Below are positions 40,639 to 61,224 of a stretch of DNA of 64,000 nucleotides, one piece after another. Positions within the stretch are counted from its first letter, which is position 1, and each line of letters opens with the position of its first letter. The notes beneath the pieces are model-generated. The model saw nothing but the letters and a program-made list of their open reading frames with translations. It was not told the origin of the DNA and searched no databases. The stretch is taken from assembly GCA_902771935.1 (NCBI GenBank), contig CACXYM010000003.1, forward strand, positions 52,813-116,812. The letters run 5' to 3'. The stretch comes from an uncultured Bacteroidales bacterium (GTDB taxonomy: Bacteria; Bacteroidota; Bacteroidia; Bacteroidales; Paludibacteraceae). A program made the translations under genes and the position numbers.

Positions 40639-40669
40639 CAAAATTACTGCTATTTATTTGAATGCGCAA
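40639..40669 (-). promoter_or_regulatory. Bacteroidota promoter of TonB receptor 38538-40634
   Basis: Minus strand TTG (40669-40667), 20-bp spacer, TAATTTTG (40646-40639). Only CAGC separates the element from the ATG. Confidence 0.85.
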
Positions 40670-40686
40670 TACCTAAAAATGGGGAT
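40669..40686 (-). promoter_or_regulatory. conserved dyad, site 5 (overlaps -33)
   Basis: Plus-strand sequence ATACC-TAAAAATG-GGGAT. Read on the minus strand its last T is the first T of the -33 TTG of the receptor promoter, the same geometry as sites 1 and 3. Confidence 0.72.
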
Positions 40687-40696
40687 TTGCTTTTAT

Positions 40697-40738
40697 CTTT
40701 CGACTTTTTGCTTTCGACTTTCGACTTTTGACCTTCGA
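40697..40738. repeat. 7-bp repeat array (CTTTCGA type) between two TonB-receptor genes
   Basis: Six heptamers: CTTTCGA, CTTTTTG, CTTTCGA, CTTTCGA, CTTTTGA, CCTTCGA. It abuts the stop codon of the upstream receptor gene at 40739. Confidence 0.9.
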
Positions 40739-43012
40739 CTAAATCTTAATCGCTAACCCTACGAAGTAGGTCCGTGGTGTGGATGGGCCGTAGATATAGT
40801 TGGCGTCTTTGTTAGGTCCTTTGTCTAAGTCGCGTTGAAATTGGTCGAAGATATTCTTTACACCTGCGCTCACTTCCAAACTATATTGTTTATATAGTCG
40901 TATCTCGTATGCGAGGCGGATCCCTAAATCGAAGAATGTAGGCGTTTTGGCTTCTTCGTCTTGAGGAATATATCCTGCCAAGTGCGGCACAATCATAGAC
41001 CCGGTTACTTTGCCGTTGATCGATATGGTGAAGTCTTTGACCGGTTTAACGTCGAGCAACATGTACCCATAGTGGTCCGGGGTATGGAGCATACGTTTTT
41101 GTGGTGCCACGTCGGGGCTCCATTGTTGGGCTACGGTGTATTGACTTTGCTGGTAGGTATAACCTAATTGTATGGTTAGGAAGGGCGCATAGCTCACTTT
41201 TCCTTCGAAATTAACTCCTCCGACCCAAGCGCCTGCAGCATTGGTTCGGGTCAGTAGCAGATTGCCTTTGGCATCGTGACCTTCTTCCCGAAGAAAGAAA
41301 ACGTCCTGTAAGTAGGTGTAAAATCCTTCAGCAGTGAGGTTCACTTCCCAACGGTCGAAGTGTCTATTCCAATCGATACTCATGGTAGCGCTGTGTGAGT
41401 ATTCGGGTTTGAGGTTTGGGTCAAGGGATATGAGTGACACTTCCCCTCCCACAGCCGCTACGTGCAGGTCTTCGTCGTAGGCTTGCGGTGCACGATAGCC
41501 ACTGCTGTATCCGGCACGTAGAACAAGCCCTTCGATGGGTGTATAGCGGAAGTTAGCGCGTGGGGTCACCACCACATTGCGCAGCAGGTTATGCTTCTCT
41601 ATGCGGGCACCAATTAAGATGCTCCAGTTCGTGTTCTTCCATTCGTTCTGGGCATAGCCGCCTACTACATGCACATGCTGATTGATGATGCGTTTGTAAC
41701 CTAACATTTTGTCATTCAATCCGTTGTAGTTATACTCTGTTCCTACCGTCAGGTCTCCTGTCATTTTTCCGCAGGGGTAGGAGAATCGGTATTGCAGACC
41801 GGTGTTGGCGGTGAGGTCAGAGCTTCTGCCGTACGCGTCAGGGTCATGGTTGGTCCCGAAGTAACTCTCTCTGCCGATATGTTGCACGGCGCCGTAGGCG
41901 GAGACGAAGTGTCGGTTGTCTTCCGAGAACCAGTCGAAGCCTAACGACCCTGCGTCGATATTATGCCGTAGTTGTTCCGCGATATCGGCTTTAAAGGGTT
42001 CTTCGTCTCTATTGTTGCCTCCGCGTCGGTATTCGGACGTGTGGTGATATTCGGCAGTTATCTTACTGTATGCACTTGTTTTAAAGAACGCGCGTGCGCC
42101 TGCGGTAGTACCGCGCAGTTGGGGCACTTCGCTAAAACCGTCTTCGTCTCTGTCGTATGCAGAACGCGTACGGTGGTTGGCAAAGAGATAGGCACCTATT
42201 TTGCGGTTCTCGCTCACTACCGATGCGTTGAGATTCGTATTGATGTCGTATCCTGTGTGCTCATTGATACCGCTTGTGTTCGATAGGTTAACAAAATTGC
42301 GCACAGGCTCTTTGGTGATGATATTCACTACACCGGCGATAGCGTTCGCTCCATATACGGCGGACCCGCCTCCGCGCAATACTTCGATGCGGTCAATCAT
42401 GGCTGCCGGTACTTGCTCTAAACCATAGACTGACGCCATCGACGAGAATACAGGCCGACTGTCCATCAGTATCTGGGTGTACTGACCCTGAAGGCCATTG
42501 ATACGCAAGTCCGTCTTTCCGCAGTTGGAGCAAGTGTTCTCTACACGTAGTCCGGGTTGAAAATTCAGTGCATCGGCTACACATGATACAGCCGTCGTCT
42601 CAAAGAGACGTGGCGATATGACATTCACTATCGAAGCCGTTTCTTGACGCTTCGTAGCATACCGATTGGCGGTCACCACCACGCTGTTCAACTCATGTGA
42701 TGCTTCGCGGATGGTCGCTTTCAGCTCAATGGTCTTATCTTGAACTAAGGTGACGGGTAATTCTAATGTCTCGTACCCGACGTAACTGAACACTACGGTT
42801 TGTTTGCCTATGGGAAGGTCTTTTAGCAAGTAGTGTCCGGATTCATCTGTCACGGTGCCTTTATCGGATCCTTTGAGTTGCACGTTGACGTAGGGAAGGT
42901 GTTCTCCGGTTCGCTCGTCAAGCACGTGTCCGGTTATATGCGCATCGTATTGGGCGTAAATGGGTAAAACACAACTTAACAGAAATACTAATACCTTTAT
43001 TTTTTGCTTCAT
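40739..43012 (-). CDS. TonB-dependent receptor with carboxypeptidase-like N-terminal domain
   Basis: 757 aa from the ATG at 43012; the frame runs further upstream (to 43267) but that part precedes the promoter. Signal peptide (VLPIYAQ), then a carboxypeptidase D-like regulatory domain (about 24-110: ITGHVLDERTGEHLPYVNVQLKGSDKGTVTDESGHYLLKDLPIG), TonB-box/plug (LNSVVVTANRYATKRQETA, CSNCGKTDLRINGLQGQYTQILMDSRPVFSS, IEVLRGGGSAVYGANAIAGVVNIITK) and the barrel, ending YFVGLAIKI with hydrophobic termini. It lacks SusC-type features and a SusD partner. The CSNC pair in the plug is a feature of metal/haem/cobalamin-type receptors in this phylum; ligand unknown. A heptamer array abuts the stop. Confidence 0.92.
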   Translation of the reverse strand: MKQKIKVLVFLLSCVLPIYAQYDAHITGHVLDERTGEHLPYVNVQLKGSDKGTVTDESGHYLLKDLPIGKQTVVFSYVGYETLELPVTLVQDKTIELKATIREASHELNSVVVTANRYATKRQETASIVNVISPRLFETTAVSCVADALNFQPGLRVENTCSNCGKTDLRINGLQGQYTQILMDSRPVFSSMASVYGLEQVPAAMIDRIEVLRGGGSAVYGANAIAGVVNIITKEPVRNFVNLSNTSGINEHTGYDINTNLNASVVSENRKIGAYLFANHRTRSAYDRDEDGFSEVPQLRGTTAGARAFFKTSAYSKITAEYHHTSEYRRGGNNRDEEPFKADIAEQLRHNIDAGSLGFDWFSEDNRHFVSAYGAVQHIGRESYFGTNHDPDAYGRSSDLTANTGLQYRFSYPCGKMTGDLTVGTEYNYNGLNDKMLGYKRIINQHVHVVGGYAQNEWKNTNWSILIGARIEKHNLLRNVVVTPRANFRYTPIEGLVLRAGYSSGYRAPQAYDEDLHVAAVGGEVSLISLDPNLKPEYSHSATMSIDWNRHFDRWEVNLTAEGFYTYLQDVFFLREEGHDAKGNLLLTRTNAAGAWVGGVNFEGKVSYAPFLTIQLGYTYQQSQYTVAQQWSPDVAPQKRMLHTPDHYGYMLLDVKPVKDFTISINGKVTGSMIVPHLAGYIPQDEEAKTPTFFDLGIRLAYEIRLYKQYSLEVSAGVKNIFDQFQRDLDKGPNKDANYIYGPSTPRTYFVGLAIKI

Positions 43013-43038
43013 GAATAGCCTGTTTTCGAAAACGGCGG

Positions 43039-43069
43039 CAAAGGTACTGCTTTTTTTCCACATACACAA
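43039..43069 (-). promoter_or_regulatory. Bacteroidota promoter of TonB receptor 40739-43012
   Basis: Minus strand TTG (43069-43067), 20-bp spacer with AAAAAAAGCAG end, TACCTTTG (43046-43039), 26 bp upstream of the ATG. Confidence 0.83.
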
Positions 43070-43084
43070 GTTTTCACCTCTCTT

Positions 43085-43102
43085 TTCTCTATTATTTGGG
43101 AT
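43085..43102 (-). promoter_or_regulatory. degenerate dyad, site 6
   Basis: Minus strand ATCCC-AAATAATA-GAGAA: the left ten bases equal those of site 2 (minus reading), the right half-site is lost. Exactly 15 bp separate it from the -33 TTG, as at sites 1 and 2 for their minus-strand promoters. Confidence 0.4.
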
Positions 43103-43128
43103 ATTCTCTTTTTTACTTCTTCCCCTTT

Positions 43129-43145
43129 CCCGAGTGTCACTCGGG
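43129..43145. repeat. 17-bp perfect palindrome CCCGAGTG-T-CACTCGGG
   Basis: Eight-base arms around one central base; a similar 17-bp palindrome (CCCGAATC-G-GATTCGGG) lies at 47786-47802. Confidence 0.8.
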
Positions 43146-43304
43146 CTTCGTTCCGTGCTCTGCCTCTTTCCGAGCTCGGGCATAGGCGGTTTAGCCCTTC
43201 GCTGTCCTGCAAGAGGACGGTTGGTCTCGAGCCCTAAAATTGGTGAAAAATTAAGAAAACAGAACAAAAATTACAAAAATCGCCATAAATACACACCCAA
43301 AAAT

Positions 43305-43335: not shown

Positions 43336-43357
43336 CACCCAAAATACACCCAATATG

Positions 43358-45212: not shown

Positions 45213-47723
45213 TTATTTCAACACAATATCTTGTCCTGTTAACGTATATGTCTTTTCACCATGAAGAATATAAATTTGTCCGTTGTGGAGGAGTTTGCGG
45301 GTGTGCGTCCTATACGAATCTTCCTCTATATTCGATAAAGGAGTGGACGCGTGTTTAACACAAGAATATGTCATTTCTTCCGTATCGGAATTAAATGTAA
45401 AGGTAATATCATAGAGGGCATCTTCCGAAACGGTCAGATTATCACCGAACTTGCCCCCTTGACCATAATCGAAATTATCCATTTCTCCAGATGGTTGCCC
45501 GTTTTTGGTCCGAATCTTAAAACCATAGCTGGTAGTAGTGATATGTACTAGCGATGCCTGCCAAGTGTATAGATTGCCGTCTCGAACAGGTGTCCCCAGC
45601 GGATATACATTTCCCCACTGCCAATCTGACGGATCCGGGATGGCGCCTTCTTGGTTGGCGATAGCATCACCAATAAGTTCAAGTTCGCAGTCCTCATAGC
45701 TCGGTTTAATTAGCGTTCCATCTTCAAACAGGAAGCACTTCCAAACAGGTGCCGCCTTATAAAGCGGTACTGATTCCTCAGGAACTATCAGCAAGCATGC
45801 CGATCGGTCAATACCATAAAAAACGGATTTGCTAATAGGTTGAGGTGTAGTTGCATTGTTACATATAGTGTCCAAAGATGTACAGTTGAAGAAGGCGCCA
45901 TCTCCAATGCTTGTGACAGTATTCGGTATGGAGATAGAAGTCAAGCCAATGCATCCAAAGAAAGCATATGTTCCTATAGAATTAAGCTCTTCGGATAGGT
46001 GAATCTTTTTGAATAATGTTCGGTAATTATACCATGGTGAAGTATTCCAGTCGTAATTATACATATCACCAGAGCCTATTATTTCAAGTTCTGATGTATT
46101 GCAATTTATCTTCCATACCAAATCATCTCCGCATTTTCCATAGGCAGTAATACAAGGCGTTGGTTCTTCATGAGGGAAGAAGTCTTCCCATTGATTGGCT
46201 ATCTTGTATAGGTCTATACTGGCATCTGGAAGATGCAGCGTAATAGTTTTATCTATATCTCTAAATACTGCGGTCCCGCAAATCGGTGGAGTGAGTGCTT
46301 TACATGTAATCTCTTTGACATTGGAACAGCCGCTGAATGCATAATCACCAATGGATGTAATGCCCTTAGGCAAAAATATATATTCTATAGAATCTCTGAA
46401 CGGATACCAAGGAGCTTCATTCAGTTCCCAATTGGCTGTCATGTCGCCAATACCCATTATTGTTAGGACACTGCTGTCGCAACTGACTATCCACCCCAAG
46501 CCGTCGCCGCACATTCCGTACCCAGCAATACAAACGGAAGTTGTATCAATTAAGAAGTCTTTCCATACAGGGGCTGATTTGTATAAACCATATGACTCGG
46601 CAGGAACTAATAATAGGCAAGTAGATTTGTTAACATCGCCAAATACGCCCTCTGTAATCTGTTGTGGAATCTCCGCATGATTATAAATAATAGAAAGGTT
46701 GTTGCAACCTTCGAACGCATTATACCCAATGCTTGTGACGCTATTAGGAATAGTAATAGAAGTTAGTTGACTCATGCCATAGCACAAATACCTTGGGATG
46801 GTTTCCACATTCTCTCCGAATGTAAAAGATGTGATCTGACTATATATAAAACTGAAAGGAAAATAAAAACCACTTGAAGGCGTGGCACAATTTTTTGCCT
46901 CCCATACAATACTCGTCAGATTAGTGCAACCATCGCAAACCGCATCTTCAATGCTTGTGACGCTATTGGGGATGGTAATACTTGTCAAACCGACGCAACC
47001 AGAGAAAGCACGTTCTTTGATGCATGTGACGCTATTTGGAATTTCAATACTCGTCAGACCAGTACATTCAGAGAAAGCATATCTTCCAATAATTGTGACG
47101 CTATTGGGAATGGTGATAGAAGTCAATTTATTCAGACCACTGCAACATCCTGCAGGAATGTACTCAACTTCATTTCCAAAGGAAAAGAATTCTACATAAC
47201 TGCCCCATGACATTATACTCTCGGTATAATTCTTTGCATTCCATGTTACAGATATTAGATTGGAGCAAAAATAGAATGCACCATCTCCAATGCTTGTGAC
47301 GTTTTTTGGGATGGTGATACTTGTTAGACCAGAGCAATATTCGAAAGCAGAATTTCCTATAGTTGTGACGCTGTTGGGAATGGTGATACTTGTTAGACCA
47401 GAGCAACCTTCGAAAGCAGAATTTCCTATAGTTGTGACGCTATTGGGAATGGTCACATTCATCAAACCGGTGCAACCATAGAAAGCATAATCGCCAATGC
47501 TTGTAACACTGTTGCCAATAGACACTTCAGTTATTGATGAACGATACAAATACCAAGGAACGTCTCTGTATCCAAAATCATACATTACTCCGATACCGCT
47601 AATAGTAAGCACTCCATCCTTTAAATCCCACGTGAGGTTTTCGCCGCATGTTCCGCTTTCGGCAAACAGTGTTCCTACGCTTGCTGCAAGCGCGAGAAAA
47701 AGAGTAAATAATGTTTTTTTCAT
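45213..47723 (-). CDS. BspA-type leucine-rich-repeat surface protein, likely T9SS cargo
   Basis: 836 aa with a signal peptide (SVGTLFA). At least nine BspA/LRR_5 units of about 23 residues (pattern CTGLTSITIPNSVTSIGDYAF) in three blocks (about 60-350, 435-480, 560-600). Each block is introduced by a CG..L.W.......L.I.G.G.M......PW..YR module (about 26-60, 400-435, 525-560). Residues about 665-770 (WQWGNVYPLGTPVRDGNLYTWQASLVHITTTSYGFKIRTKNG) resemble SusE/SusF-like starch-binding modules. The end TRKLLHNGQIYILHGEKTYTLTGQDIVLK looks like a Bacteroidales C-terminal sorting-type signal. Adhesion or polymer binding at the surface is likely. Confidence 0.88.
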   Translation of the reverse strand: MKKTLFTLFLALAASVGTLFAESGTCGENLTWDLKDGVLTISGIGVMYDFGYRDVPWYLYRSSITEVSIGNSVTSIGDYAFYGCTGLMNVTIPNSVTTIGNSAFEGCSGLTSITIPNSVTTIGNSAFEYCSGLTSITIPKNVTSIGDGAFYFCSNLISVTWNAKNYTESIMSWGSYVEFFSFGNEVEYIPAGCCSGLNKLTSITIPNSVTIIGRYAFSECTGLTSIEIPNSVTCIKERAFSGCVGLTSITIPNSVTSIEDAVCDGCTNLTSIVWEAKNCATPSSGFYFPFSFIYSQITSFTFGENVETIPRYLCYGMSQLTSITIPNSVTSIGYNAFEGCNNLSIIYNHAEIPQQITEGVFGDVNKSTCLLLVPAESYGLYKSAPVWKDFLIDTTSVCIAGYGMCGDGLGWIVSCDSSVLTIMGIGDMTANWELNEAPWYPFRDSIEYIFLPKGITSIGDYAFSGCSNVKEITCKALTPPICGTAVFRDIDKTITLHLPDASIDLYKIANQWEDFFPHEEPTPCITAYGKCGDDLVWKINCNTSELEIIGSGDMYNYDWNTSPWYNYRTLFKKIHLSEELNSIGTYAFFGCIGLTSISIPNTVTSIGDGAFFNCTSLDTICNNATTPQPISKSVFYGIDRSACLLIVPEESVPLYKAAPVWKCFLFEDGTLIKPSYEDCELELIGDAIANQEGAIPDPSDWQWGNVYPLGTPVRDGNLYTWQASLVHITTTSYGFKIRTKNGQPSGEMDNFDYGQGGKFGDNLTVSEDALYDITFTFNSDTEEMTYSCVKHASTPLSNIEEDSYRTHTRKLLHNGQIYILHGEKTYTLTGQDIVLK

Positions 47724-49043: not shown

Positions 49044-50069
49044 TTAATCATCATTGATATTCGGTTGGATCAGTTGTGTGCGCCAGGACGTGAAACGCAA
49101 GCGGATAGGCAGTAGCCATCGTTCAATGCGCTGCGCAAGCGGTCGTTCGCCGTCCGGCACAATCTCACAAGCGACCTGCTCAAACGTCTTCGCATCCACA
49201 GCATAATAACGCGAGTCGGTGGCAGTATATTCGGTAATCGTCCAGTGGAAGAGGTCACCGACAATAGTTATCTGCATCTGCTGCGGATCGTACGCATCGA
49301 TACCAACCATAACCGTCTGTCCATCTCTCGTGACCGCGAAGAGTTGGTCGTCATTAGATACTACCAAACCTATCAACTGTCTGTTCGCCGGCTCTACTGT
49401 AAAGACTTGCTTCCAGCCGTTTGTATTATCGGTCTTTATCTCACGTACCCACGGCACTCCCTTAACCATCTTGAGTTGGAAGAGTCGGTCATTAGCATCG
49501 GTACTATTTCCCCAGATGAGTTGCACGGGGAAGGTAAATCCGTGTTTAGTCAATTCGCGTGAGAATGAAAGCGACTTGGCCTTATTGACCTTATTCGTCT
49601 CGCAATCTATAAACTCCAATCCGTTTGTAGTAACTCGGAACACATCCGGTGGAAGTTGTAGATCCACTCTGCCGGATGCCGATTCAAGCAAAGTGTATAA
49701 TCCGACAGCCGGTTTGTTAAGTTGCTTAGGCGAAGTCTTGAAATGAAAAGCATTCTGTTGTATCAGTTTAGGAGTAAGCGCTACGCCATACAGCGAATCG
49801 GGTAGGCGTCCTTCTGCTACTAATTGACGGAAAGCAAAAAGGGGCAACAGACTATCTGCCTGTGCTTTGCTAAACTCCTGCCCGCGGAAATCTACATAGC
49901 GGACTTGCTTATTGCTACTCTCAAAGCGAATAAACGTACTATCTAAACACGAGTACACAACAAATGGCATTTTGTCCGTACGTGGTATAACTAATTCGTA
50001 TAGTGCCGGTAACAACCAAGCTATCACAATTAGCGATAGAGCGATGATAAGGTATTTAATATATCTCAT
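49044..50069 (-). CDS. DUF4857-type ABC-transporter-associated membrane-anchored protein
   Basis: 341 aa with an N-terminal membrane anchor (YIKYLIIALSLIVIAWLLPALYELVIP). The rest is a periplasmic beta-rich domain: SKQVRYVDFRGQEFSKAQADSLLPLFAFRQLVAEGRLPDSLYGVALTPKLI, LQLPPDVFRVTTNGLEFIDCETNKVNKAKSL, and RYYAVDAKTFEQVACEIVPDGERPLAQRIERWLLPIRLRFTSWRTQLIQPN. I recognise this as the DUF4857 pattern, typically the third gene after an ABC ATPase and permease in Bacteroidales. Function unknown. Its ATG overlaps the permease stop (ATGA, 50066-50069). Confidence 0.8.
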   Translation of the reverse strand: MRYIKYLIIALSLIVIAWLLPALYELVIPRTDKMPFVVYSCLDSTFIRFESSNKQVRYVDFRGQEFSKAQADSLLPLFAFRQLVAEGRLPDSLYGVALTPKLIQQNAFHFKTSPKQLNKPAVGLYTLLESASGRVDLQLPPDVFRVTTNGLEFIDCETNKVNKAKSLSFSRELTKHGFTFPVQLIWGNSTDANDRLFQLKMVKGVPWVREIKTDNTNGWKQVFTVEPANRQLIGLVVSNDDQLFAVTRDGQTVMVGIDAYDPQQMQITIVGDLFHWTITEYTATDSRYYAVDAKTFEQVACEIVPDGERPLAQRIERWLLPIRLRFTSWRTQLIQPNINDD

Positions 50070-50734
50070 TGTTTTCCAAGTTTAAAGCGATATATGGAAT
50101 AGAAAGGAAGGCAGACTGTAGCAATTAACACTACTAGCAGCCAGGGCCACATAGTAATATAGCACGCAGGTTGAGTTGTGAGGAAACAGAGTGCTACCAA
50201 TGGCGCGCCAATTAGGAAGTTCACACAGCGCATTTTCCAAAGCGGTTCCAATAGACACCATGAAGTAACATTATAACCAATGAATCCACCTATGTACCAC
50301 GGCAAGCACGTAATAAATGTTCTCCAAACCAGTTCGCGCGGGAGCCATAGCTGCTCTACAATTGACAGCGTCACAGCATCAATGCTGAAAAGGAGGCACA
50401 AACCTATCAGGCTGCTCAAAAGCATAATCCCGATAGATTGGGAATAATCAATGGGTAAGTGCAGGGTCAAGCGTATTCGTTTATTTTGCATCTCTGGTAG
50501 CCATTGGCACAAGGCAATGCATATACCTGTGATTAAGGGCAAGTACGTTAATTGGTTAATCATTAGTACATCCCGACTTATCATAGTTGCCCATGTCTCT
50601 ACGGTGCCGGCTGACAGAAGAGTGGCACGCAGTGCGAGAAGGAGATAGGTTATCAGACCAATATGTATCACGAAGGCAAGGCACCATACAAGGCGCAACT
50701 TGAGCCATTCTTTATAAAATATTGCGTGTACCAT
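50066..50734 (-). CDS. ABC transporter permease
   Basis: 222 aa with about six membrane helices and no soluble domain. Conserved-looking spots: MVHAIFYKEWLKLRLVW (ABC-2-type cytoplasmic start) and RIRLTLHLPIDYSQSIGIMLL between helices, as in ABC-2 permeases (KEW.K.R start). It pairs with the ATPase directly upstream (2-bp gap) and the DUF4857 protein downstream. Substrate and direction are unknown; ABC-2 permeases are often exporters. The regulatory link with TonB receptors makes a role with a metal or cofactor possible (inference). Confidence 0.8.
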   Translation of the reverse strand: MVHAIFYKEWLKLRLVWCLAFVIHIGLITYLLLALRATLLSAGTVETWATMISRDVLMINQLTYLPLITGICIALCQWLPEMQNKRIRLTLHLPIDYSQSIGIMLLSSLIGLCLLFSIDAVTLSIVEQLWLPRELVWRTFITCLPWYIGGFIGYNVTSWCLLEPLWKMRCVNFLIGAPLVALCFLTTQPACYITMWPWLLVVLIATVCLPFYSIYRFKLGKQ

Positions 50735-50736
50735 AA

Positions 50737-51450
50737 TTAGTATTTACCGGTTAAATCAATAAACGTATCTTCCAGCGTCTTCTGAGGCGTAATCAGTTCA
50801 CTTACAGGACATTGTTTGAGAATATGTCCATAGTCCATGATGATGCAATCGTCCACAAGTCGTTCCAAGTCTTGAATGATATGGGACGTGAGAAACACTG
50901 TTTTCTCTCCGCGTTTGCAGAAGTCTCGTAAGTATTCAACAAACAGCCGTCTGTAGCCAGGGTCTAATCCTAATGAGAAATCATCCAAAATGAGCAATTC
51001 GGGATCTTGAGCCATCAGTAGTCCTAATGCCACTTGGCTCCGTTGTCCGTTCGACATCTGGCTGAGCGACTGATAATCCTTAACTTGTAGTAATCGCATC
51101 AGTTCATAGTATGCGTCTCGGTTCCATTTAGGAAAGAATGGAGCATAGAATCGCTCTATTTGTGCAATGGTCATAAACGGATATTGTACATGTCCCTCAA
51201 GCAGTAGTCCAATTCGAGCGCGTACTTTGGAGGGCATCGTACGTATATCATAACCTAAAAGTCGGCATGAGCCGGAGTGAGGCTGAATAAATCCTGAGAG
51301 GATATTGATTGTGGTCGTCTTGCCGGTGCCGTTTTTACCTAATAGACCAAGTATGCGTCCCCGTGGTACAGAAAAAGACATGTTCTCGTAGATAAGTCGT
51401 TTCCCGTAATAGTGGGTGACGTGGTCATATTCTATCATATTTGTATCCAT
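50737..51450 (-). CDS. ABC transporter ATP-binding protein
   Basis: 237 aa from the ATG at 51450. An in-frame ATG at 51438 (MIEYDH) is the alternative; the frame extends to 51684 but crosses the promoter. Walker A GLLGKNGTGKTTTIN (about 36-50), Q-loop region LLLEGHVQYPF, signature MSNGQRSQVALGLLM (a variant of LSGGQ), Walker B PELLILDDFSLGLDPG, H-loop TVFLTSHIIQ. The DDF-S in Walker B instead of DEP-T is a subfamily feature. The start lies 8 nt behind TACTTTTG, so the leader is extremely short. Divergent from the TonB receptor at 51557; both share one dyad. Confidence 0.88.
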   Translation of the reverse strand: MDTNMIEYDHVTHYYGKRLIYENMSFSVPRGRILGLLGKNGTGKTTTINILSGFIQPHSGSCRLLGYDIRTMPSKVRARIGLLLEGHVQYPFMTIAQIERFYAPFFPKWNRDAYYELMRLLQVKDYQSLSQMSNGQRSQVALGLLMAQDPELLILDDFSLGLDPGYRRLFVEYLRDFCKRGEKTVFLTSHIIQDLERLVDDCIIMDYGHILKQCPVSELITPQKTLEDTFIDLTGKY

Positions 51451-51458: not shown

Positions 51459-51489
51459 CAAAAGTACTGCTTTTTTTCCAATTAACCAA
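51459..51489 (-). promoter_or_regulatory. Bacteroidota promoter of ABC operon
   Basis: Minus strand TTG (51489-51487), 20-bp spacer, TACTTTTG (51466-51459). Confidence 0.86.
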
Positions 51490-51504
51490 GCCTATACCCC
51501 TAAA

Positions 51505-51522
51505 ATCCCAACTAATGGGGAT
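51505..51522. promoter_or_regulatory. conserved dyad, site 1 (shared by divergent promoters)
   Basis: ATCCC-AACTAATG-GGGAT, perfect 5-bp arms. On the plus side its last T (51522) is the first T of the -33 TTG for the TonB operon. On the minus side it ends 15 bp upstream of the -33 TTG of the ABC operon. The flank TACCCCTAAAAT on the left is shared with site 2: 26 of 32 positions (51495-51526 vs 58571-58602) are identical. Confidence 0.8.
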
Positions 51523-51552
51523 TGTGCAGGTGGGTAAAAAGCAGTACTTTTG
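51522..51552 (+). promoter_or_regulatory. Bacteroidota promoter of TonB/DUF4876/DUF6850 operon
   Basis: TTG (51522-51524), 20-bp spacer ending AAAAAGCAG, TACTTTTG (51545-51552). Only CACC separates it from the GTG start. Confidence 0.86.
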
Positions 51553-51556: not shown

Positions 51557-54073
51557 GTGAAAAAAAGGCTACTTTTTATACTAATCTTTTGCGGACAATG
51601 GGTCTGGGCGGCGCAGCCGGATTCGTTGCGGTTAGATAGTGCCCAACAAGCGCTATTGGATAGTATAGATAAGTTGTTTACCATTCAGGAAGTAGTAGTG
51701 ACCGCGGAAGAATCCACGGGGCAGAGTAGTGCCAGCGTGATAGGTAAAGAGGCGATTCAGCATATTCAGCCTTCCTCCTTTACAGATATCCTCCAGACAC
51801 TTCCGGGTGGTACGACAAAAGACCCTAATCTATCTAATGCCAATACCATTCGCCTCCGAGAAGCAAGTAATAGCGCGAGCAGTAGCGATTATGATGCTTC
51901 ATCTCTTGGAACCTCTTTTGTCGTTGATGGAGCTCCGGTTAACACCGACGCTAATATGCAATATGTCCAATCTGACGTCAGTGGTGCAGACTCTAAACGT
52001 AATAGCGTGGGAGCAGGTGTCGATATGCGAACTATTTCGACCGATGATATAGATAAAGTGGAGATTATTCGCGGAATAGCGGGTGCTGAATATGGGGATG
52101 TGACATCCGGAGTCGTGAAGATTGAGCGTACGAGTAAGCCGACACCTTGGAGAGCACGATTTAAGGCAGACGGATTTAGTAAGTTGCTCTTCTTCGGTAA
52201 AGGAATAGGATGGAATAACGAAAGGACGGTGCTTAATTTTGGAGTGGATTACTTAAATGCCAAAGCCGACCCGACCAACACCTTGGAAAATTATCAACGT
52301 ATCACTGCCTCGGTGCGTTTGCAGCAGAAGTGGGAGATTAATGCCATTCACTTGCGTTGGCAAAGTCATTTGGACTATACCGGTAGCATTGATAACGACA
52401 AAATAGACCCTGATATCCATAACAACCGCGAGGATAGTTATCGAAGTGAATACCATAAGTTAAGTTGGAACAACACTTTCTATCTGCACAGCCACGGTGT
52501 CGAGTGGTGGAGATGTAGTGTGCAAGCCAATCTGTTAGGCGAGATGGATCGTATCGAACAGACGCGATTAGTGCAATTGACAACGCCTAAGAATCCTGCC
52601 ATCGATAATATGGTTGAAGGCGAGGCTACCGTACAATTCCTGCCCTACAAATACACGGCTAAACACATGGTAGAAGGTGTACCGATTAACGTCTTTATCC
52701 GCCCTAAAGCCGAGTTCTATTTCTCAACATGGCGCATAGAGCATAAGGCGAATATAGGTATTGAGTGGCGTTATACCAAGAACTTCGGTAGAGGACAGAT
52801 ATACGACTTGAGTCGTCCACTTAATTACTCCTCGACCTTGCGTCCGCGTGCTTACTACGATATCCCCGCCACGAACCAGTTAGCGTGGTATATCCAAGAC
52901 GATATCACTTTTCCCATTGTGGAGCACTTACGCCTCGACCTCAATATAGGACTACGTGGAACCTCTTTATTGGGGCTTGGAAGTGAATATGCGATTAGCG
53001 GTAGGTGCTATTTAGACCCACGTGCAAACCTTACCGTCAATTTCCCATTTACTAAGGGTAAGTGCTACGTTGCTGCAGCTATCGGGCAGCATACAAAAAT
53101 GCCTACCTTGCTGCAACTCTCACCCAATCTGTTATATATGGATTTGCAAGCGCCCAATGCTACTATTGCTCCCCAAGACCAAACCATGCAAATCTATACG
53201 CATATCATCGATCCTACCAATTATGCACTGCAGCCGGCGAGAAACCTTAAGTGGGAAGTGCGTGCCGGACTTGATATAGATAAGCACCGTTTAACGATTA
53301 CTTATTTCGAAGAAAACATGAGCAATGCTTTCAGGGGGCTGATGCAAGTCGAAGCGTTTCACTATACCATTGGGTCAAGTGATTACAAACGTTTGCTCAC
53401 CTATTCCACTACTACTAATGGTAGCCGTATCTTCAAGCAAGGAGTAGAGTGGCAGTACCAAAGTCCGCGTATTCAGGCTATATGCACTCGTTTTACGGTT
53501 AATGGGGCATGGTTGAGAACCACCTATAGCAATAGTGAAAAGATGTTCTCCACAGAGAAAAGTCCCGGCGTCGTTCAGGGAGTCAATGTGCAAGACCATT
53601 ATATAGGCTTATACGACTGGACGGAAGGGTATATTCGCGAGAGCTTGAATACCAATCTCGTTGCGGATATCTATATTCATAAAATCGGACTCACCGTTAG
53701 TGCTACATTAGAGACGACTGTATATACGGCATCAAAGACCTTGGAGAAGAACGGACGACCTATTTCCTATATATCGTCTGAGGATGGAGAACTCCATCGC
53801 TATGATGCTGCGGCGGAGCAGAATGCAATCCTTAAGACGTTGATTTTCGATTATAATAGCGGACAATTTGTGCGTCGTACGGTGCCTTTTGAAGGCTACC
53901 TGAACTTGCGCGTACAGAAAAGTATAACTCGTTTTGCTAATATCGCGCTATATGTCAATCGGTTATTAGATATACTTCCAGATTATCAGGTAAGTGGCCC
54001 CAGCGGCGGACAAGTGACTATTCACCGAACCGCAAGTCCTTATTTTGGCATGGAGATAAATTTGAATATATAA
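51557..54073 (+). CDS. TonB-dependent receptor of DUF4876/DUF6850 operon
   Basis: 838 aa from GTG at 51557, the only start that yields the signal peptide (MKKRLLFILIFCGQWVWA, cleavage before AQPDS); the frame is open upstream but runs through the promoters. TonB box/plug: IQEVVVTAEESTGQSSASVIGKEAIQHIQPSSFTDILQTLPGG, SFVVDGAPVNTDANMQYVQS, IDKVEIIRGIAGAEYGDVTSGVVKIERTSKPTPWRARFKADG; then a long barrel ending GMEINLNI. No carboxypeptidase-like domain. The GTG lies 4 nt behind the -7 element, so a leaderless mRNA is likely. DUF4876 lipoprotein gene follows after 1 bp. Confidence 0.9.
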   Translation: MKKRLLFILIFCGQWVWAAQPDSLRLDSAQQALLDSIDKLFTIQEVVVTAEESTGQSSASVIGKEAIQHIQPSSFTDILQTLPGGTTKDPNLSNANTIRLREASNSASSSDYDASSLGTSFVVDGAPVNTDANMQYVQSDVSGADSKRNSVGAGVDMRTISTDDIDKVEIIRGIAGAEYGDVTSGVVKIERTSKPTPWRARFKADGFSKLLFFGKGIGWNNERTVLNFGVDYLNAKADPTNTLENYQRITASVRLQQKWEINAIHLRWQSHLDYTGSIDNDKIDPDIHNNREDSYRSEYHKLSWNNTFYLHSHGVEWWRCSVQANLLGEMDRIEQTRLVQLTTPKNPAIDNMVEGEATVQFLPYKYTAKHMVEGVPINVFIRPKAEFYFSTWRIEHKANIGIEWRYTKNFGRGQIYDLSRPLNYSSTLRPRAYYDIPATNQLAWYIQDDITFPIVEHLRLDLNIGLRGTSLLGLGSEYAISGRCYLDPRANLTVNFPFTKGKCYVAAAIGQHTKMPTLLQLSPNLLYMDLQAPNATIAPQDQTMQIYTHIIDPTNYALQPARNLKWEVRAGLDIDKHRLTITYFEENMSNAFRGLMQVEAFHYTIGSSDYKRLLTYSTTTNGSRIFKQGVEWQYQSPRIQAICTRFTVNGAWLRTTYSNSEKMFSTEKSPGVVQGVNVQDHYIGLYDWTEGYIRESLNTNLVADIYIHKIGLTVSATLETTVYTASKTLEKNGRPISYISSEDGELHRYDAAAEQNAILKTLIFDYNSGQFVRRTVPFEGYLNLRVQKSITRFANIALYVNRLLDILPDYQVSGPSGGQVTIHRTASPYFGMEINLNI

Positions 54074-56414: not shown

Positions 56415-56849
56415 ATGAAAAAGATTCTATTTATCGTTGCAGTGGCGCTGGTGGCGTTGACTGCATGCCAAAAAGGACAAGTGAAAGAAACCGTCTATTC
56501 AGTGGACGAAGTGTTTGTACAGGGTGATTCGCTCGTGGGCGATACCATCTCGGTAGAAGGTATGTGTTTGCATTTGTGCAAGCATGGTGGTCGTAAAGCG
56601 TTTTTGCGCAGTAGTGATCAAGGTGAGTTTATTCGTGCTAATGCTGTTGCCTTTGAGTCTTTTGCGCCTGAGTGCGTGAATAATAAGGTACGCGTGCGCG
56701 GTGTGTTACGCGCGATGGAAGTACCGGTAGAGGTTAAGGAAGCGGAAGAGTCGCACGAAGAGGGCGAAGAGGCTTGCTCTGTCTGCTCGACTGTTAAGAA
56801 GTTCTACATTGATGCCGATTCCTACCAAATCATTCTCCCTGAGAAGTAA
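56415..56849 (+). CDS. Cys/His-rich OB-fold-like lipoprotein
   Basis: 144 aa with lipobox LTAC (Cys about 19). The domain looks like a small OB fold (ISVEGMCLHLCKHGGRKAFLRSSDQGEFIRANA ... NKVRVRGVLRAM ... FYIDADSYQIILPEK). It carries CLHLCKH (CxHxCxH-like) in the first strand pair and an acidic loop ending ACSVCSTV (CxxC). These four cysteines and two histidines could bind Zn, Cu, Fe-S or haem; which one is unknown. Last gene of the TonB/DUF4876/DUF6850 operon, 16 bp after DUF6850, which suggests a metal or metallocofactor as the operon's ligand. Confidence 0.72.
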   Translation: MKKILFIVAVALVALTACQKGQVKETVYSVDEVFVQGDSLVGDTISVEGMCLHLCKHGGRKAFLRSSDQGEFIRANAVAFESFAPECVNNKVRVRGVLRAMEVPVEVKEAEESHEEGEEACSVCSTVKKFYIDADSYQIILPEK

Positions 56850-56932: not shown

Positions 56933-58459
56933 TCATTCCATTAGTCCTCCAGTGATGTTGTACAGTTTTCCATTGTGGCGGATAAGCAGTTGTCCGTTCT
57001 GGATGAACTTCTCAGCACGTGTAGCCGGTAGTTGAATGCTTTCAATGGCGGTTGACGGGCTCTTGGTGTTCAATGTAGCAAGTACGCTGTACCAGTTTGT
57101 TTTGTCTGCGAAGTTAAAGGTCTGTCCTAAGAGCAGGTAGTCAGCGGTCGTTCTTGCGCGGCATCCAATAGCTGTTTGTGTAGCATCTGCATTGCGTGCT
57201 ACGCAGCTGATAGTGGACGAACCGCCACCTGTACCTAACGTATCTGTGCTGATCAAGGTCAAGTCCTCATCGTAGTTAAATGCCAGCTGGATACCATTTA
57301 GCGTCTCGTGGTTATATGCTATGACACCGGTAGCGGTCGGAAAAGCAGCTACGGTGATGTTCAGCGCGTCATTAGCTGCGGCGTGGATATCGGCATTGAG
57401 TGCCTTGCCATTCGCTTGGTTGATTACATAAACGAGACCATTATTCATGTTGCCGGAGGTAGAAATAGTCTTTTCACCGATCGTGATACTACCTTTACTG
57501 ATAGCGCCGCAGATGTAAATTCTGCCTTTTTCGAACTTGGTCTGTTGGAATTGCAGGTTACCTGTTATCGGGTGATATTCGATAAACTCACGCTTTAGGT
57601 CTGTTCCGTAAGCAGCTGCATAGATACCGCTCTCTGTACTGTTTTTGTAGGTACCAACCACATACAGCTTGCCGTTCTCATAGTGCATACCAATAGGGCG
57701 GTCGTAAACTAAATCGTCGCTATTGATTACGTAGGCGAGATATTTCATTTGGCTGTCGTATTTGATGATAACGGTGTTGCAGTTACTGCTCTTTTGCTGT
57801 GCATTGCCATTCCAATTGTTCGGACGCATTGCGATAGTGTCCATCCAGGTAGGGAAGAGTGTGTCAGCTTGATAACCGGCGAGATAGATGTTATTTGCTT
57901 CATCTTGTGCCAGTCCTGCCCAAGCGTATGAGTCGTTAGGGTCTGCAGTCATTGTGGAGGTGCGCTCATAACTTGCAGTGATGTTGTTACTCTCGGTTAC
58001 GAAAGAGGTGTTGTCGTGCACGTTGATAAACGTTACGTAACGACCTTTCTTATTGCGCATCTTCTGCGCAAAGATTGCTCCTCCGTCTTTGGTAGCCATA
58101 TTGACACTACCACCGAGGTCAAACTGATACGTCGTGTCCGGAACAGTCCATAAAACCGTACCTTCTTTGTCCACTTTTGCCATAAAAGCATTTGTGAGCG
58201 CTTGCAACCCCAATTTACTTGCCGTACCTCCTTGATAGGTATCACCATCGAAATGCAAACCAACTTCGTCCTTGGAAGCCGTAGAGTAACTCGACAGCAG
58301 TAGCAGACTGCCGTCAGCATAGTAATCGAGGTTGTACAATTGCGTTTGTCCTTTGGTAGCGTCTGCTTGTTCTGCTACTAATGTTTTGAAATAGCCAGGT
58401 TCTGCTGCCTGTGCCATTACGCTCAGCCCTAAAGCTGCTAAAAAGATAACTTTTTTCAT
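56933..58459 (-). CDS. exported protein with Bacteroidales C-terminal sorting-like end
   Basis: 508 aa from ATG at 58459 (an ATG two codons upstream, 58465, is equally possible). Signal peptide MKKVIFLAALGLSVMAQAA. The body looks like a repetitive beta-propeller/SBBP type: LLLLSSYSTASKDEVGLHFDGDTYQGG, AKVDKEGTVLWTVPDTTYQFDLGG, VIIKYDSQMKYLAYVINSDD, KLYVVGTYKNS. It ends TRAEKFIQNGQLLIRHNGKLYNITGGLME, the pattern GQ-L-I---GK-YN--G shared with the LRR protein at 45213, probably a T9SS-type sorting end. Cargo or ligand unknown. Its promoter is associated with a conserved dyad. Confidence 0.78.
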   Translation of the reverse strand: MKKVIFLAALGLSVMAQAAEPGYFKTLVAEQADATKGQTQLYNLDYYADGSLLLLSSYSTASKDEVGLHFDGDTYQGGTASKLGLQALTNAFMAKVDKEGTVLWTVPDTTYQFDLGGSVNMATKDGGAIFAQKMRNKKGRYVTFINVHDNTSFVTESNNITASYERTSTMTADPNDSYAWAGLAQDEANNIYLAGYQADTLFPTWMDTIAMRPNNWNGNAQQKSSNCNTVIIKYDSQMKYLAYVINSDDLVYDRPIGMHYENGKLYVVGTYKNSTESGIYAAAYGTDLKREFIEYHPITGNLQFQQTKFEKGRIYICGAISKGSITIGEKTISTSGNMNNGLVYVINQANGKALNADIHAAANDALNITVAAFPTATGVIAYNHETLNGIQLAFNYDEDLTLISTDTLGTGGGSSTISCVARNADATQTAIGCRARTTADYLLLGQTFNFADKTNWYSVLATLNTKSPSTAIESIQLPATRAEKFIQNGQLLIRHNGKLYNITGGLME

Positions 58460-58534: not shown

Positions 58535-58565
58535 CAAAATTACTACTTTTTCCCCGTCCTTGCAA
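58535..58565 (-). promoter_or_regulatory. Bacteroidota promoter of gene 56933-58459
   Basis: Minus strand TTG (58565-58563), 20-bp spacer, TAATTTTG (58542-58535). Confidence 0.84.
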
Positions 58566-58580
58566 GCCTATACCCCCAAA

Positions 58581-58598
58581 ATACCAACTATTTGGGAT
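58581..58598. promoter_or_regulatory. conserved dyad, site 2
   Basis: ATACC-AACTATTT-GGGAT, one arm mismatch. On the minus strand it ends exactly 15 bp upstream of the -33 TTG, and the spacer (TTTGGGGGTATAGGC) is nearly identical to that of site 1 (TTTAGGGGTATAGGC). Confidence 0.78.
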
Positions 58599-58644
58599 GG
58601 TAGAAAGCATTAATAATATAGAGAAAAATGGAGGTTGCTATTGA

Positions 58645-58688: not shown

Positions 58689-58763
58689 AAGAAACAAATT
58701 GGGAACAAAAATGGAGAAAAATGCATATTGATCAAACTCTATTGTGGGATACGACCATTCCAC

Positions 58764-58781
58764 ATCCCTAAAAATGGTGAT
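58764..58781. promoter_or_regulatory. conserved dyad, site 4 (upstream of the regulator gene)
   Basis: ATCCC-TAAAAATG-GTGAT, one arm mismatch; the spacer is identical to that of site 5 (TAAAAATG). It ends 14 bp upstream of the -33 TTG of the hemerythrin-LuxR gene, with a TTTTGGG flank as at site 2. Confidence 0.72.
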
Positions 58782-58795
58782 TTTGGGCTCCGTAT

Positions 58796-58826
58796 TTGGC
58801 TAAACCGAATATTTTTACTACCTTTG
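58796..58826 (+). promoter_or_regulatory. Bacteroidota promoter of hemerythrin-LuxR regulator
   Basis: TTG (58796-58798), 20-bp spacer, TACCTTTG (58819-58826), 22 bp upstream of the ATG. Confidence 0.84.
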
Positions 58827-58848
58827 CAGCCAAATTACGATTTCTACT

Positions 58849-59688
58849 ATGTATAAAGCTACGGATAAGATAAGCGACTTGATGGCGCACGAAGAAGATG
58901 CTATCCAGATTATCAGTCGGTTTGGATTAGAATTAGGAGTAGGTGAGCAGACCATTGAACAGGTGTGCGAAGCGCATCATGTGCATACACCTACTTTCCT
59001 CGCTATTGTTAACTATAAACTCTACAAACAGCCTGTTACAGCGGCGGATATCGATGTGCCGACCCTGCAGCGGTTCCTTGGTAATGCCCACGCGTACTTT
59101 TTGGACTTCCGCCTGCCACGACTGCGTCGCGCTTTAGTGGAAGCAATAATTCCTGCCGACCCTACGACTCAGATACCCGGACTTATACTCCGTTGCTACG
59201 ATGAGTTTGTGGACGAGATACGTACCCATATAGAGCATGAAAACGAGGGACGATTTGAGGAACATGAGCACGATGACCAACGCATCACCGATAAACTCAC
59301 AGAAATCAAGAACCTCATCATCAAGTACTTCCAAGGTGGCGACTCCTATCTGCTTATCAGCGTTATGTCCGATTTATGGCATACCGAGCAGGATTTTGCA
59401 GACCATTGCGCTATCGAGGACGATATTTACCGTCCTGCCATAACCAAGATACAACCTTCGAGTCCGCGACGCATACAAATAGCAGAAACAGAAGAACTGA
59501 GTGACCGCGAAAAAGAGGTGCTTATCCAAGTCGTTCGCGGACTGAGCAATAAAGAGATTGCCGATGTGCTATGTATCTCTACGCACACCGTTATTTCACA
59601 CAGAAAGAATATTTCTCGTAAACTCAATATTCACTCAACGGCCGGTTTGACCATCTACGCGATAGTCAATAAGATAGTGCCGATTTGA
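58849..59688 (+). CDS. hemerythrin-like/RIC-type sensor fused to LuxR-family DNA-binding domain
   Basis: 279 aa, soluble. Residues 1-60 (KISDLMAHEEDAIQIISRFGLELGVGEQTIEQVCEAHHV) resemble the ScdA/RIC N-terminal DUF542 domain but lack its CCG cysteines. Residues 85-200 follow the hemerythrin pattern with candidate di-iron ligands in FLGNAHAYFLDFRLP, EFVDEIRTHIEHENEGRFEEHEH and DLWHTEQDFADHCAIEDDIYRP. Residues 213-275 are a LuxR/GerE helix-turn-helix (LSDREKEVLIQVVRGLSNKEIADVLCISTHTVISHRKNISRKL). An iron-, NO- or O2-responsive regulator is the natural reading; P. gingivalis has a LuxR-type haemin regulator (CdhR) that may be related. Dyad site 4 precedes it; its end overlaps convergent FeoB by 34 bp. 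Confidence 0.85.
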   Translation: MYKATDKISDLMAHEEDAIQIISRFGLELGVGEQTIEQVCEAHHVHTPTFLAIVNYKLYKQPVTAADIDVPTLQRFLGNAHAYFLDFRLPRLRRALVEAIIPADPTTQIPGLILRCYDEFVDEIRTHIEHENEGRFEEHEHDDQRITDKLTEIKNLIIKYFQGGDSYLLISVMSDLWHTEQDFADHCAIEDDIYRPAITKIQPSSPRRIQIAETEELSDREKEVLIQVVRGLSNKEIADVLCISTHTVISHRKNISRKLNIHSTAGLTIYAIVNKIVPI

Positions 59689-61157
59689 TAAACTACAAAT
59701 GCCATCACCCAAGCAAGTAACAGGGAGTGGATCACCGTGAACCACGCCCAGCGTCGTCCTGCCTCGCGACGAAGAGTGGCTATCGTTGCAATACAAGGGA
59801 AATAGAGTAGCACGAAGAGCATAAATGTGAAGGCTGTCAGCGGTGTAAAGGCGGATGTGGTGGCATCTCCGCCGTACAGAATACCCATTGTGGAGATAAT
59901 AGCTTCTTTAGCCGGCAGACCTGTCAATAAGCACACAGAGGTCTTCCAGTCAAAGCCTAACGGCTGAACGAGCGGTTCCGTCCATTTACCAATCATAGCC
60001 AAGTACGAGTGCTCCAGGTCCATTGAGTGCGTCGGAAAATAGGTCAGCGCCCAGATAATGATACTTGCCCAGATAATAACGGTACCAATCTTTTGCAGGT
60101 AATCCCAAAGTCGATCCCACACATGCACACATAAAGCCTTGAACTGCGGTTTGCGGAACTGTGGCAACTCGGATACATAGTCACGAGCAGACTGGCGGAA
60201 CCACTTCGTGCGCTTCATCACTAAAGCAAAGAGGATACTGAGCACAATGCCTATCGCGTAAAGCGACATCATCACCAATGCCTTATGGCCAGGGAAGAAA
60301 GCACTCACAAACAGCATATATACCGGAAGGCGTGCAGAGCAGGACATAAACGGTATCATCAGCATTGTCAGCGTGCGGTCCTTGATATTATCAATATCGC
60401 GTGCAGCCATAATAGCCGGTACGTTGCATCCGAAGCCTACCAACATGGGGATAAAACTGCGTCCGTGCAGACCGACGGCGTGCATGATTTTGTCCATCAG
60501 GAAGGCAGCACGCGCCATATAACCTGAGTCCTCCATCAATGCTAACAGGATAAAGAGTATCAATATATTCGGCACGAAAGAGAGAATAGCGCCTACGCCG
60601 CGAACAATACCATCAATAAACAGACTGCTCAGCCAACCGGCAGCAAGGACGGTGTCAAGCCACTCGCAGAGCGCGTCTATCCCTTGTGCGATCCACTCTT
60701 GCGGATAACTGCCGATAGCGAACGTCAGCTCAAAAACTGCGTACAGCACCACAATCAAGATAGGGAAACCGAGCCATCGGTTAGTCAGCACCTTATCAAT
60801 GCGATCCGCCAGACTATGGCCGGTATCATCGGGAGCGTGATGAAGTGTCTCCTCCAAGGCTCCGTGGATATAACCTTCTATACTGTCAATACGAACAGGA
60901 CGGAAATGGTTCGGCATAGCCAGTATGGTATCTTTGTCCTCAATGCGACCAATACGCACTCCCATTAGTTGGGAGAGTAATTCGTAATCGAGCCAGTGGT
61001 GCGTTTTAAGAAGGTCTTTGTAATGCGTAAGGAGAATAACGAAGTGTTGCCGTTGGTTAAGCAACTGTACCGCTTGCACGAGCCCGGATTCCAGGTGACG
61101 TGCGTCCACTTCTACAATGTGAATTCCATTCTCAATATAGTCAGTACTATGTGCCAT
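59655..61157 (-). CDS. feoB: FeoB-family permease with vestigial G domain
   Basis: 500 aa. The membrane part is clearly FeoB: DRIDKVLTNRWLGFPILIVVLY, then SFVPNILILFILLALMEDSGYMARAAFLMDKIMHAVGLHGRSFIPMLVGFGCNVPAIMAARDI, MIPFMSCSARLPVYMLFVSAFF, LTGLPAKEAIISTMGILYG. The usual N-terminal GTPase lacks its first half: no P-loop GxxNxGKT or DxPG is present, and residues 1-90 keep only remnants (HFVILLTHYKDLLKTHHWLDYELLSQLMGVRI aligns with the NMMD-LSxxLGVPV part). Its own promoter and dyad lie right upstream, so the short form is genuine in this sequence. No FeoA partner is seen. Ferrous iron or Mn transport is expected. Confidence 0.9.
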   Translation of the reverse strand: MAHSTDYIENGIHIVEVDARHLESGLVQAVQLLNQRQHFVILLTHYKDLLKTHHWLDYELLSQLMGVRIGRIEDKDTILAMPNHFRPVRIDSIEGYIHGALEETLHHAPDDTGHSLADRIDKVLTNRWLGFPILIVVLYAVFELTFAIGSYPQEWIAQGIDALCEWLDTVLAAGWLSSLFIDGIVRGVGAILSFVPNILILFILLALMEDSGYMARAAFLMDKIMHAVGLHGRSFIPMLVGFGCNVPAIMAARDIDNIKDRTLTMLMIPFMSCSARLPVYMLFVSAFFPGHKALVMMSLYAIGIVLSILFALVMKRTKWFRQSARDYVSELPQFRKPQFKALCVHVWDRLWDYLQKIGTVIIWASIIIWALTYFPTHSMDLEHSYLAMIGKWTEPLVQPLGFDWKTSVCLLTGLPAKEAIISTMGILYGGDATTSAFTPLTAFTFMLFVLLYFPCIATIATLRREAGRRWAWFTVIHSLLLAWVMAFVVYQIGTILLTIA

Positions 61158-61176
61158 AAGTTATCAAATTGCGTTG

Positions 61177-61207
61177 CAAAAGTACTGCTTTTTGCGCATT
61201 CCCACAA
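61177..61207 (-). promoter_or_regulatory. Bacteroidota promoter of FeoB-like gene
   Basis: Minus strand TTG (61207-61205), 20-bp spacer ending AAAAAGCAG, TACTTTTG (61184-61177), 19 bp upstream of the ATG. Confidence 0.86.
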
Positions 61208-61224
61208 TCCCCAATTGTTGGTAT
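61207..61224 (-). promoter_or_regulatory. conserved dyad, site 3 (overlaps -33 of feoB)
   Basis: Minus strand ATACC-AACAATTG-GGGAT; its last T is the first T of the -33 TTG. The following GGGATTGTG is identical to site 1. An ACCCC-AAAAT block lies further upstream, displaced by 6 bp relative to sites 1 and 2. Confidence 0.78.

Follow-up and report, generated by a model that had tools for sequence, protein, structure and literature searches.

A 64,000-nucleotide stretch of DNA (the window) from an uncultured Bacteroidales bacterium of the Paludibacteraceae (contig CACXYM010000003.1, positions 52,813 to 116,812) carries an 18-bp dyad, consensus AT[AC]CC-N8-GG[GT]AT, at promoters within a cluster of iron genes. 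The dyad is a real and conserved element, locked in position to the promoters that it accompanies. It is probably the operator of a hemerythrin-LuxR protein encoded at 58849-59688 in the same cluster, which would act as an activator under iron scarcity. Binding by this protein, activation rather than repression, and iron as the signal are suggested by the placement of the sites, the distribution of the protein and the genes concerned. The dyad is not limited to the window's cluster; it is also found before flavodoxin genes, some HmuY-type genes and many hemerythrin/LuxR genes of other Bacteroidales, often 22 bp from the promoter's -7 element.

The dyad and its promoters

A pattern scan of the window finds five exact dyads: 40669..40686 (minus strand, 22.7 bits), 51505..51522 (unstranded, 24.7 bits), 58581..58598 (minus strand, 23.1 bits), 58764..58781 (plus strand, 21.3 bits) and 61207..61224 (minus strand, 22.6 bits). 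These are the five sites listed in an earlier note made from the sequence alone, all of them exact matches. With up to three mismatches there are 11 matches in the window, compared with a shuffle mean of 3.9 and a largest shuffled count of 9. The organism's own genome (2.06 Mb in 46 contigs, 95% complete) has no exact dyads beyond those five, all inside the cluster; with up to two mismatches, 19 strand-matches are found, and 5 for the reversed pattern.

Spacing is measured here in bp from the end of the dyad to the TA of the -7 element TAnnTTTG. It is 22 bp at the promoters of TonB receptor gene 40634 (-7 element TAATTTTG at 40639-40646, minus strand, the dyad overlapping the -33 TTG), of the TonB operon 51557 (-7 element 51545-51552) and of the feoB-like gene 61157 (-7 element 61177-61184). 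The last T of the dyad is in this class the first T of the -33 TTG. Spacing is 38 bp at the ABC operon 51450 (-7 element 51459-51466) and gene 58459 (-7 element 58535-58542), and 37 bp at the hemerythrin-LuxR gene itself (-7 element 58819-58826), which is thus presumably autoregulated through 58764..58781. Five sites serve the six promoters described in the earlier note, as 51505..51522 is common to the two divergent operons; the geometry is also as described there, including the TTTKGGG flank of the more distant class, which is present in the window. A degenerate dyad upstream of TonB receptor gene 43012 (43085..43102, minus strand, three mismatches) was likewise said to keep the spacing, and scores 14.3 bits at exactly 38 bp. 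When the window's TAnnTTTG elements were tested at 22, 37 and 38 bp, exactly seven promoters reached at least 2 bits, with about 0.35 expected; the matrix had the five exact sites in its training set and not the degenerate one.

The 15 bases between dyad and -33 element at both 38-bp promoters (51490-51504 and 58566-58580) are nearly identical, TTT[AG]GGGGTATAGGC, and could contain a third half-site.

Conservation and spacing in close relatives

A search with the 58849-59688 protein gave 130 related loci in named genomes, from which the best 80 of 130 were kept. These are 69-85% identical and come from metagenome-assembled genomes titled Paludibacteraceae, Bacteroidales or Bacteroidia; dereplication of the 80 orthologs at 95% leaves 69. 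With a matrix built from the window's five sites alone, as the earlier note had proposed, 49 of the 69 have, in the 200 bp upstream, a site that reaches 10 bits or more; its distance from the start codon is often 82-89 bp. At 8 bits the count is 50/69, compared with a mean of 5.0 for 500 permuted matrices; the most extreme permutation reaches 47/69, and some symmetric permutations come near the motif.

The earlier note had also considered that the dyad might lie at random positions at background frequency. Noncoding DNA of the 80 loci and the window holds 86 sites, against a permuted-matrix mean of 0.88 and maximum of 7, by a matrix for which seven of nine training sites came from those same sources. 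A further 58 sites are inside crudely called open reading frames (permuted mean 4.4). Several genes recur at most 300 bp from a site. The regulator does so in 53 sources; receptor 43012 has homologs there in 11, the 51557 TonB gene in 10, gene 58459 in 7, and receptor 40634 and feoB in 5 each. In 65 site-gene pairs the gene is homologous to none of the window proteins used.

Merging of similar sites reduced 150 to 118 distinct ones, and distances to TAnnTTTG fall into few values: 22 bp (40), 37 bp (38 promoter sides), 38 bp (16) and 48 bp (5). A -7 element lies 37 or 38 bp from 51 of the 118 sites. Every other distance up to 72 bp is found at 0 to 2 sites, about 0.5 being expected per distance, and no site has a TAnnTTTG at 29-36 or 39-47 bp; 44 sites have none at 22, 37, 38 or 48 bp. 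Two divergent promoters are served by 25 sites, and in 21 of these a 22-bp spacing to one promoter is paired with 37 or 38 bp to the other. By their sequences, the related genomes thus lend support to the earlier proposal of one dimeric regulator that would control a metal-type regulon in two fixed geometries.

The two dyad positions are 15-16 bp apart, about 1.5 helical turns (operator classes of loci L049-L128). This is unlike Escherichia coli, where the step from class II to class I is 20 bp. A composite search for dyad plus -7 element at 21-bp spacing in 20 genomes recovered none of the window's 22-bp class, is silent on 22-bp spacing, and gave about as many matches in regulator-negative as in regulator-positive genomes.

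Co-occurrence of dyad and regulator

The hemerythrin-LuxR protein is the only GerE protein found in its own genome. Among congeneric genomes at least 90% complete, the excess of motif matches over a reversed control is 4.56 where a close regulator is present (n=39), 1.31 where it is distant or partial (n=13) and 0.55 where there is none (n=11). Close regulator and none differ at p=2e-5; the control counts do not differ. The same order is seen over all 151 congeneric genomes, at 3.92 (104), 2.29 (21) and 1.00 (26), six of the 26 regulator-less genomes being assigned by difference.

Individual promoters display the same association. Comparison of orthologous feoB promoters, suggested in the earlier note, finds a dyad within 1.5 kb upstream in 9/10 congeneric genomes with the regulator and 1/11 without (21 genomes; p=3e-4); the ten were hand-picked from the 39, and the eleven are all the negatives at least 90% complete. 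An 11.2-bit match at L310, inside an open reading frame, was excluded from the feoB promoter sites. At flavodoxin promoters of other families a site is present in 15/20 loci with the regulator and 0/20 without a close one (p=4e-7), the 20 + 20 loci being hand-picked by regulator E value (at most 7e-23 versus at least 3e-14) and the matrix having no flavodoxin site in its training set. The negative loci include two short contig ends, L277 (141 bases) and L280 (111 bases); another, L283, has a 7.2-bit dyad-like sequence. HmuY promoters of regulator-bearing genomes carry a site of at least 10 bits in 6/19 cases, some of them near-identical orthologs, with a permuted mean of 0.41; 19 of 21 matches were used, L299 and L304 (broken gene) being left out.

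The candidate regulator protein

The plus-strand gene 58849..59688 encodes a protein that joins a ScdA/YtfE-like hemerythrin domain (residues about 2-199) to a GerE/LuxR DNA-binding domain (216-271). The latter is recognized by PF00196 at 64.8 bits, cut-off 23.5. In profile searches, residues 2-199 match ScdA (E 1e-4) and residues 104-198 match YtfE (E 0.005), and the C-terminal part matches NarL-type regulators. In 29 sequences the ligand-like residues H81, H127, E131, H186 and E190 do not vary. The middle-ligand stretch contains a His in all 104 sequences (of 113) in which the anchor was found; in the clade of the window this His is displaced by about two residues.

The profile scores place the hemerythrin half as a relative of the RIC proteins and not a member, because the RIC score is far below cut-off: the split hemerythrin of L213 scores 62.8 bits with the RIC model TIGR03652, cut-off 204.7. 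That model is absent among the 25 families listed (of 28) for the window protein. The structure model has a mean confidence (pLDDT, predicted local distance difference test) of 84.2, falling under 50 at residues 202-214, a predicted flexible linker. Fold comparison of the model gave no match with E <0.001; LuxR-type proteins head the list, and YtfE ranks 19th (E 0.05). These weak matches are perhaps due to the flexible joint of the two modelled domains.

No receiver domain is found in the window protein, and none is detected by Pfam in three split LuxR partners, the N-terminal part of which looks receiver-like by eye. A text pattern for the acceptor segment is found in 12 of 20 LuxR proteins, with N in 11 and D in one (L205); the eight without a match include three of fused length. 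A phosphorylated two-component response regulator is accordingly ranked low, given that the window protein has no receiver and the acceptor Asp is mostly N.

The dyad in other Bacteroidales

Elsewhere in the order, two adjacent genes often encode the hemerythrin part and the LuxR part, and both split pairs and fused forms are present among loci L195-L214. The dyad consensus is there about AATACCTAAAAATAGGKATTG. Of these 20 neighbourhoods, 12 carry at the hemerythrin gene a site scoring 13 bits or more. Genomes G059 and G165 have the dyad between a flavodoxin gene and a hemerythrin gene that are divergently transcribed.

Merging by a rule similar to that for the 118 sites leaves 61 distinct sites in other genera. 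A -7 element with at least 5 of 6 bases is exactly 22 bp away in 32 of the 61, with 0.95 expected; exact -7 matches number 15 at 22 bp and 4 at 23. There is no peak at 37 or 38 bp among these 61 sites, and this class is found only in the window's close relatives. Exact -7 elements also gather roughly three helical turns further out, at 53 bp (5) and 54 bp (4), where 0.05 would be expected at each distance.

An exact palindrome searched order-wide has a match in 145 of 393 genomes (226 forward versus 115 reversed) and is noisy per genome. The 68 genomes with a regulator match of E <=1e-22 have 64 forward and 12 reversed matches, and the other 325 have 162 and 103; split by regulator, forward counts differ at p=0.001 and control counts at p=0.21.

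Relation to known regulators

Related proteins have been described in three species: PG1236-PG1237 (CdhR) of Porphyromonas gingivalis, BT0519-BT0520 of Bacteroides thetaiotaomicron and the fused PIN17_RS10465 of Prevotella intermedia (PMC10434189). Like the window protein, these combine a hemerythrin protein with a LuxR-type regulator, split or fused. Under iron depletion PG1236-PG1237 rises about 7-fold and BT0519-BT0520 16-20-fold, and PG1236-38 is listed as induced (PMC10434189). The same 2023 transcriptomic study calls the mechanism of CdhR unclear and the mechanisms of the iron response in Bacteroidetes scarcely known, and in its main text the terms 'motif' and 'binding site' do not occur (PMC10434189). 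CdhR is reported to control hmuYR (PMC10434189, PMC3832793).

The window protein has the make-up of this hemerythrin/CdhR group, a ScdA-like hemerythrin and a GerE domain in one protein or in two adjacent genes; unlike the split CdhR pairs, it is a fused form without the receiver-like part. The earlier note had called the regulon undescribed. This stands for the operator, as no published operator for hemerythrin/CdhR proteins was found among the papers listed in searches of the open-access literature (a published CdhR site could exist), and does not stand for the regulator family, which is known and has two pairs reported as induced by iron depletion (PMC10434189). What is new compared with the CdhR group is the definition of operator, exact spacings and gene set; for that group neither a published operator nor a promoter geometry was found.

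The GerE domain is common to the NarL/FixJ regulators. We take the inverted half-sites TACC.../...GGTA, with their 16-bp span, to be arranged as in NarL 7-2-7 sites, the heptamer presumably matching that of NarL only partly. The input domain differs, being a ScdA/YtfE-like, putatively di-iron domain instead of a phosphorylated receiver. With YtfE/ScdA themselves the likeness extends across the whole N-terminal half, ligand-like His/Glu positions included; the differences are fusion to or pairing with a DNA-binding protein and the score far below the RIC cut-off. The Fur regulon also controls feoB and TonB receptor genes. It differs from the present one in its operator, its protein family and its repression, in place of which activation is apparently at work here.

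Proposed mechanism and alternative explanations

The following mechanism is consistent with these features. Iron status would be sensed by the ScdA/YtfE-related N-terminal half. The protein would bind DNA as a dimer, each of its two C-terminal GerE domains taking one half-site. Under iron scarcity this dimer would occupy the dyad and activate the Bacteroidales -33/-7 promoter from about -42, overlapping the -33 element, or from about -57/-58. That the spacing is strict in both classes points to contact with RNA polymerase and hence to activation. The genes switched on would be those for TonB receptors, the ABC-transporter operon, FeoB and the regulator itself; other families would add genes for flavodoxin and some of the HmuY type. 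Iron is the likely signal because of the targets (FeoB, flavodoxin, HmuY and TonB genes) and the expression of the homologs.

A wider reading, for which we judge the chances to be even, is that of an order-wide iron-limitation regulon of the Bacteroidales whose switch is not Fur. Here a di-iron protein of the Fe-S-repair type would have come to gauge iron inside the cell, with a LuxR-type DNA-binding protein as its fusion partner or neighbour and with loss of iron from its own di-iron site as the signal. Its targets would be flavodoxin, FeoB, HmuY-type and TonB genes, activated through a 7-2-7-like operator at a strict 22 bp from the -7 element (also 37/38 bp in the window's relatives), one dyad often driving two divergent promoters in two geometries.

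Several observations weigh against the hemerythrin-LuxR protein as an iron-scarcity activator acting through the dyad. Binding and activation by the window regulator are deduced from sequence, and its hemerythrin domain is under the Pfam cut-off (22.7 versus 25.3 bits). Clear upstream sites are lacking in 20/69 orthologs, in some of which, judged by eye, another gene seems to be directly upstream. No site of at least 13 bits is found at the regulator in 8/20 of the wider neighbourhoods (L203, L205, L208-L212, L214); in L208 and L212 a weak dyad can be made out by eye, with a -7-like element at 22 bp. HmuY promoters are without a site in 13/19 cases, and the regulator-less genome G528 has a strong feoB promoter site. 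The two flavodoxin groups are different lineages. In a second flavodoxin sample (25/30 loci gave an open reading frame, two of them, L185 and L190, the wrong one), sites of at least 10 bits are found in 2/2 genomes with the regulator, 4/10 with an intermediate match and also 3/11 without a close one (G194, G092, G156); G194 and G092 are of one genus, 68 and 74% complete, with strong sites at 22 bp. In view of the hand-picked loci and this second sample, the 15-to-0 split overstates the contrast. Published reports also conflict on the direction of control: for hmu, PG1237 is described both as an activator (PMC3832793) and as a repressor (PMC2671838), and mfa1 and luxS are reported to be repressed by CdhR (PMC4082711).

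Proteins of the YtfE/ScdA type repair nitrosative and oxidative damage. The same regulator and operator might therefore answer to nitric oxide, oxygen or redox state, the di-iron centre binding nitric oxide or O2 and the control of iron genes being a repair response. Kinship of the sensor half to ScdA/YtfE, and of the split form to the RIC model, speaks for this, but the targets seen are iron uptake and flavodoxin genes and the homologous pairs respond to iron depletion (PMC10434189); we hold it to be unlikely. Alternatively, the regulator could be a repressor, or dual, blocking RNA polymerase from a dyad over the -33 element and released under iron limitation. The 22-bp class does overlap that element, and the reports of repression of mfa1 and luxS (PMC4082711) and of hmu (PMC2671838) fit; however, a second class with equally strict spacing lies 15-16 bp further upstream, outside the -33/-7 core, where repression would not need it, and we think this quite unlikely.

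The earlier note had named both the hemerythrin-LuxR protein and Fur-family proteins as candidates. The former fits best, as the sites track it. That the Fur-family protein encoded beside the cluster (62120-62602), or another regulator, binds the dyad, the hemerythrin-LuxR gene being merely a target, is improbable. The adjoining gene invites this idea, iron genes being classical Fur targets, and the three complete congeneric genomes without a Fur-family match (G448, G464, G483) are all regulator-negative and without a feoB dyad; a few genomes without a close regulator also still have flavodoxin sites. The Fur candidacy is nevertheless weakened, because 8/11 complete regulator-less congeneric genomes keep a Fur-family homolog. 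The dyad does not track Fur: the feoB dyad is absent from 10/11 regulator-negative genomes, including seven of the eight with a Fur-family match (G528 has it), and a close Fur-family ortholog (93-95%) is present only in G458 and G459 among the 21 genomes searched. The dyad instead co-occurs with the hemerythrin-LuxR protein, and presumably resembles NarL-type sites and not the Fur box. Finally, the AT-rich 8-bp core and the T shared with the -33 TTG in the 22-bp class could suggest that the dyad is due to chance or intrinsic to the promoter and has no regulator of its own. The excess of noncoding sites (86 versus 0.88), the strict spacing that extends to the 37/38 class and the scarcity of the dyad where the regulator is absent refute this computationally, and it is scarcely conceivable.

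Predicted target genes and neighbours

The following genes are the predicted targets in the window. TonB-dependent receptors are encoded at 38538..40634 and 40739..43012 (both minus strand), the second resembling heme and siderophore receptor models below their cut-offs. A third TonB-dependent receptor, with a Plug domain (51557..54073, plus strand), is the first gene of an operon that continues with DUF4876 (54075-55259), DUF6850 (55256-56398) and a small lipoprotein (56415-56849). The divergent operon (49044..51450, minus strand) encodes an ABC ATPase (start 51450), a 222-amino-acid protein (50066-50734) and a DUF4857 protein (49044-50069). The 508-amino-acid protein of 56933..58459 (minus strand) has no match in Pfam or NCBIfam, and the dyad is upstream of its homologs in 7 sources.

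Gene 59655..61157 (minus strand) encodes the membrane part of FeoB, matching TIGR00437 from position 233 of 594; the GTPase part is unmatched by that model and there is no P-loop-like start, which is present in 11/21 congeneric FeoB homologs. To lack the GTPase front part is odd for a FeoB; G458 and G459 share this short form and keep the operator. A tRNA-Arg gene (anticodon CCG; 61336-61410, minus strand) is directly upstream of the feoB promoter region. An 836-amino-acid protein with BspA-type leucine-rich repeats (45213-47723, minus strand) is located amid the iron genes, and a 2503-amino-acid open reading frame is found at 21969-29480 (plus strand).

Implications

Iron-dependent gene switching is poorly understood in the Bacteroidetes, a dominant gut phylum. 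An operator together with an exact promoter geometry gives a testable model, in which single-base operator changes become assayable and the regulon becomes predictable from Bacteroidales genome sequence. The second dyad position, about -57/-58, suggests an uncommon activation position for the unusual promoter of the Bacteroidetes.

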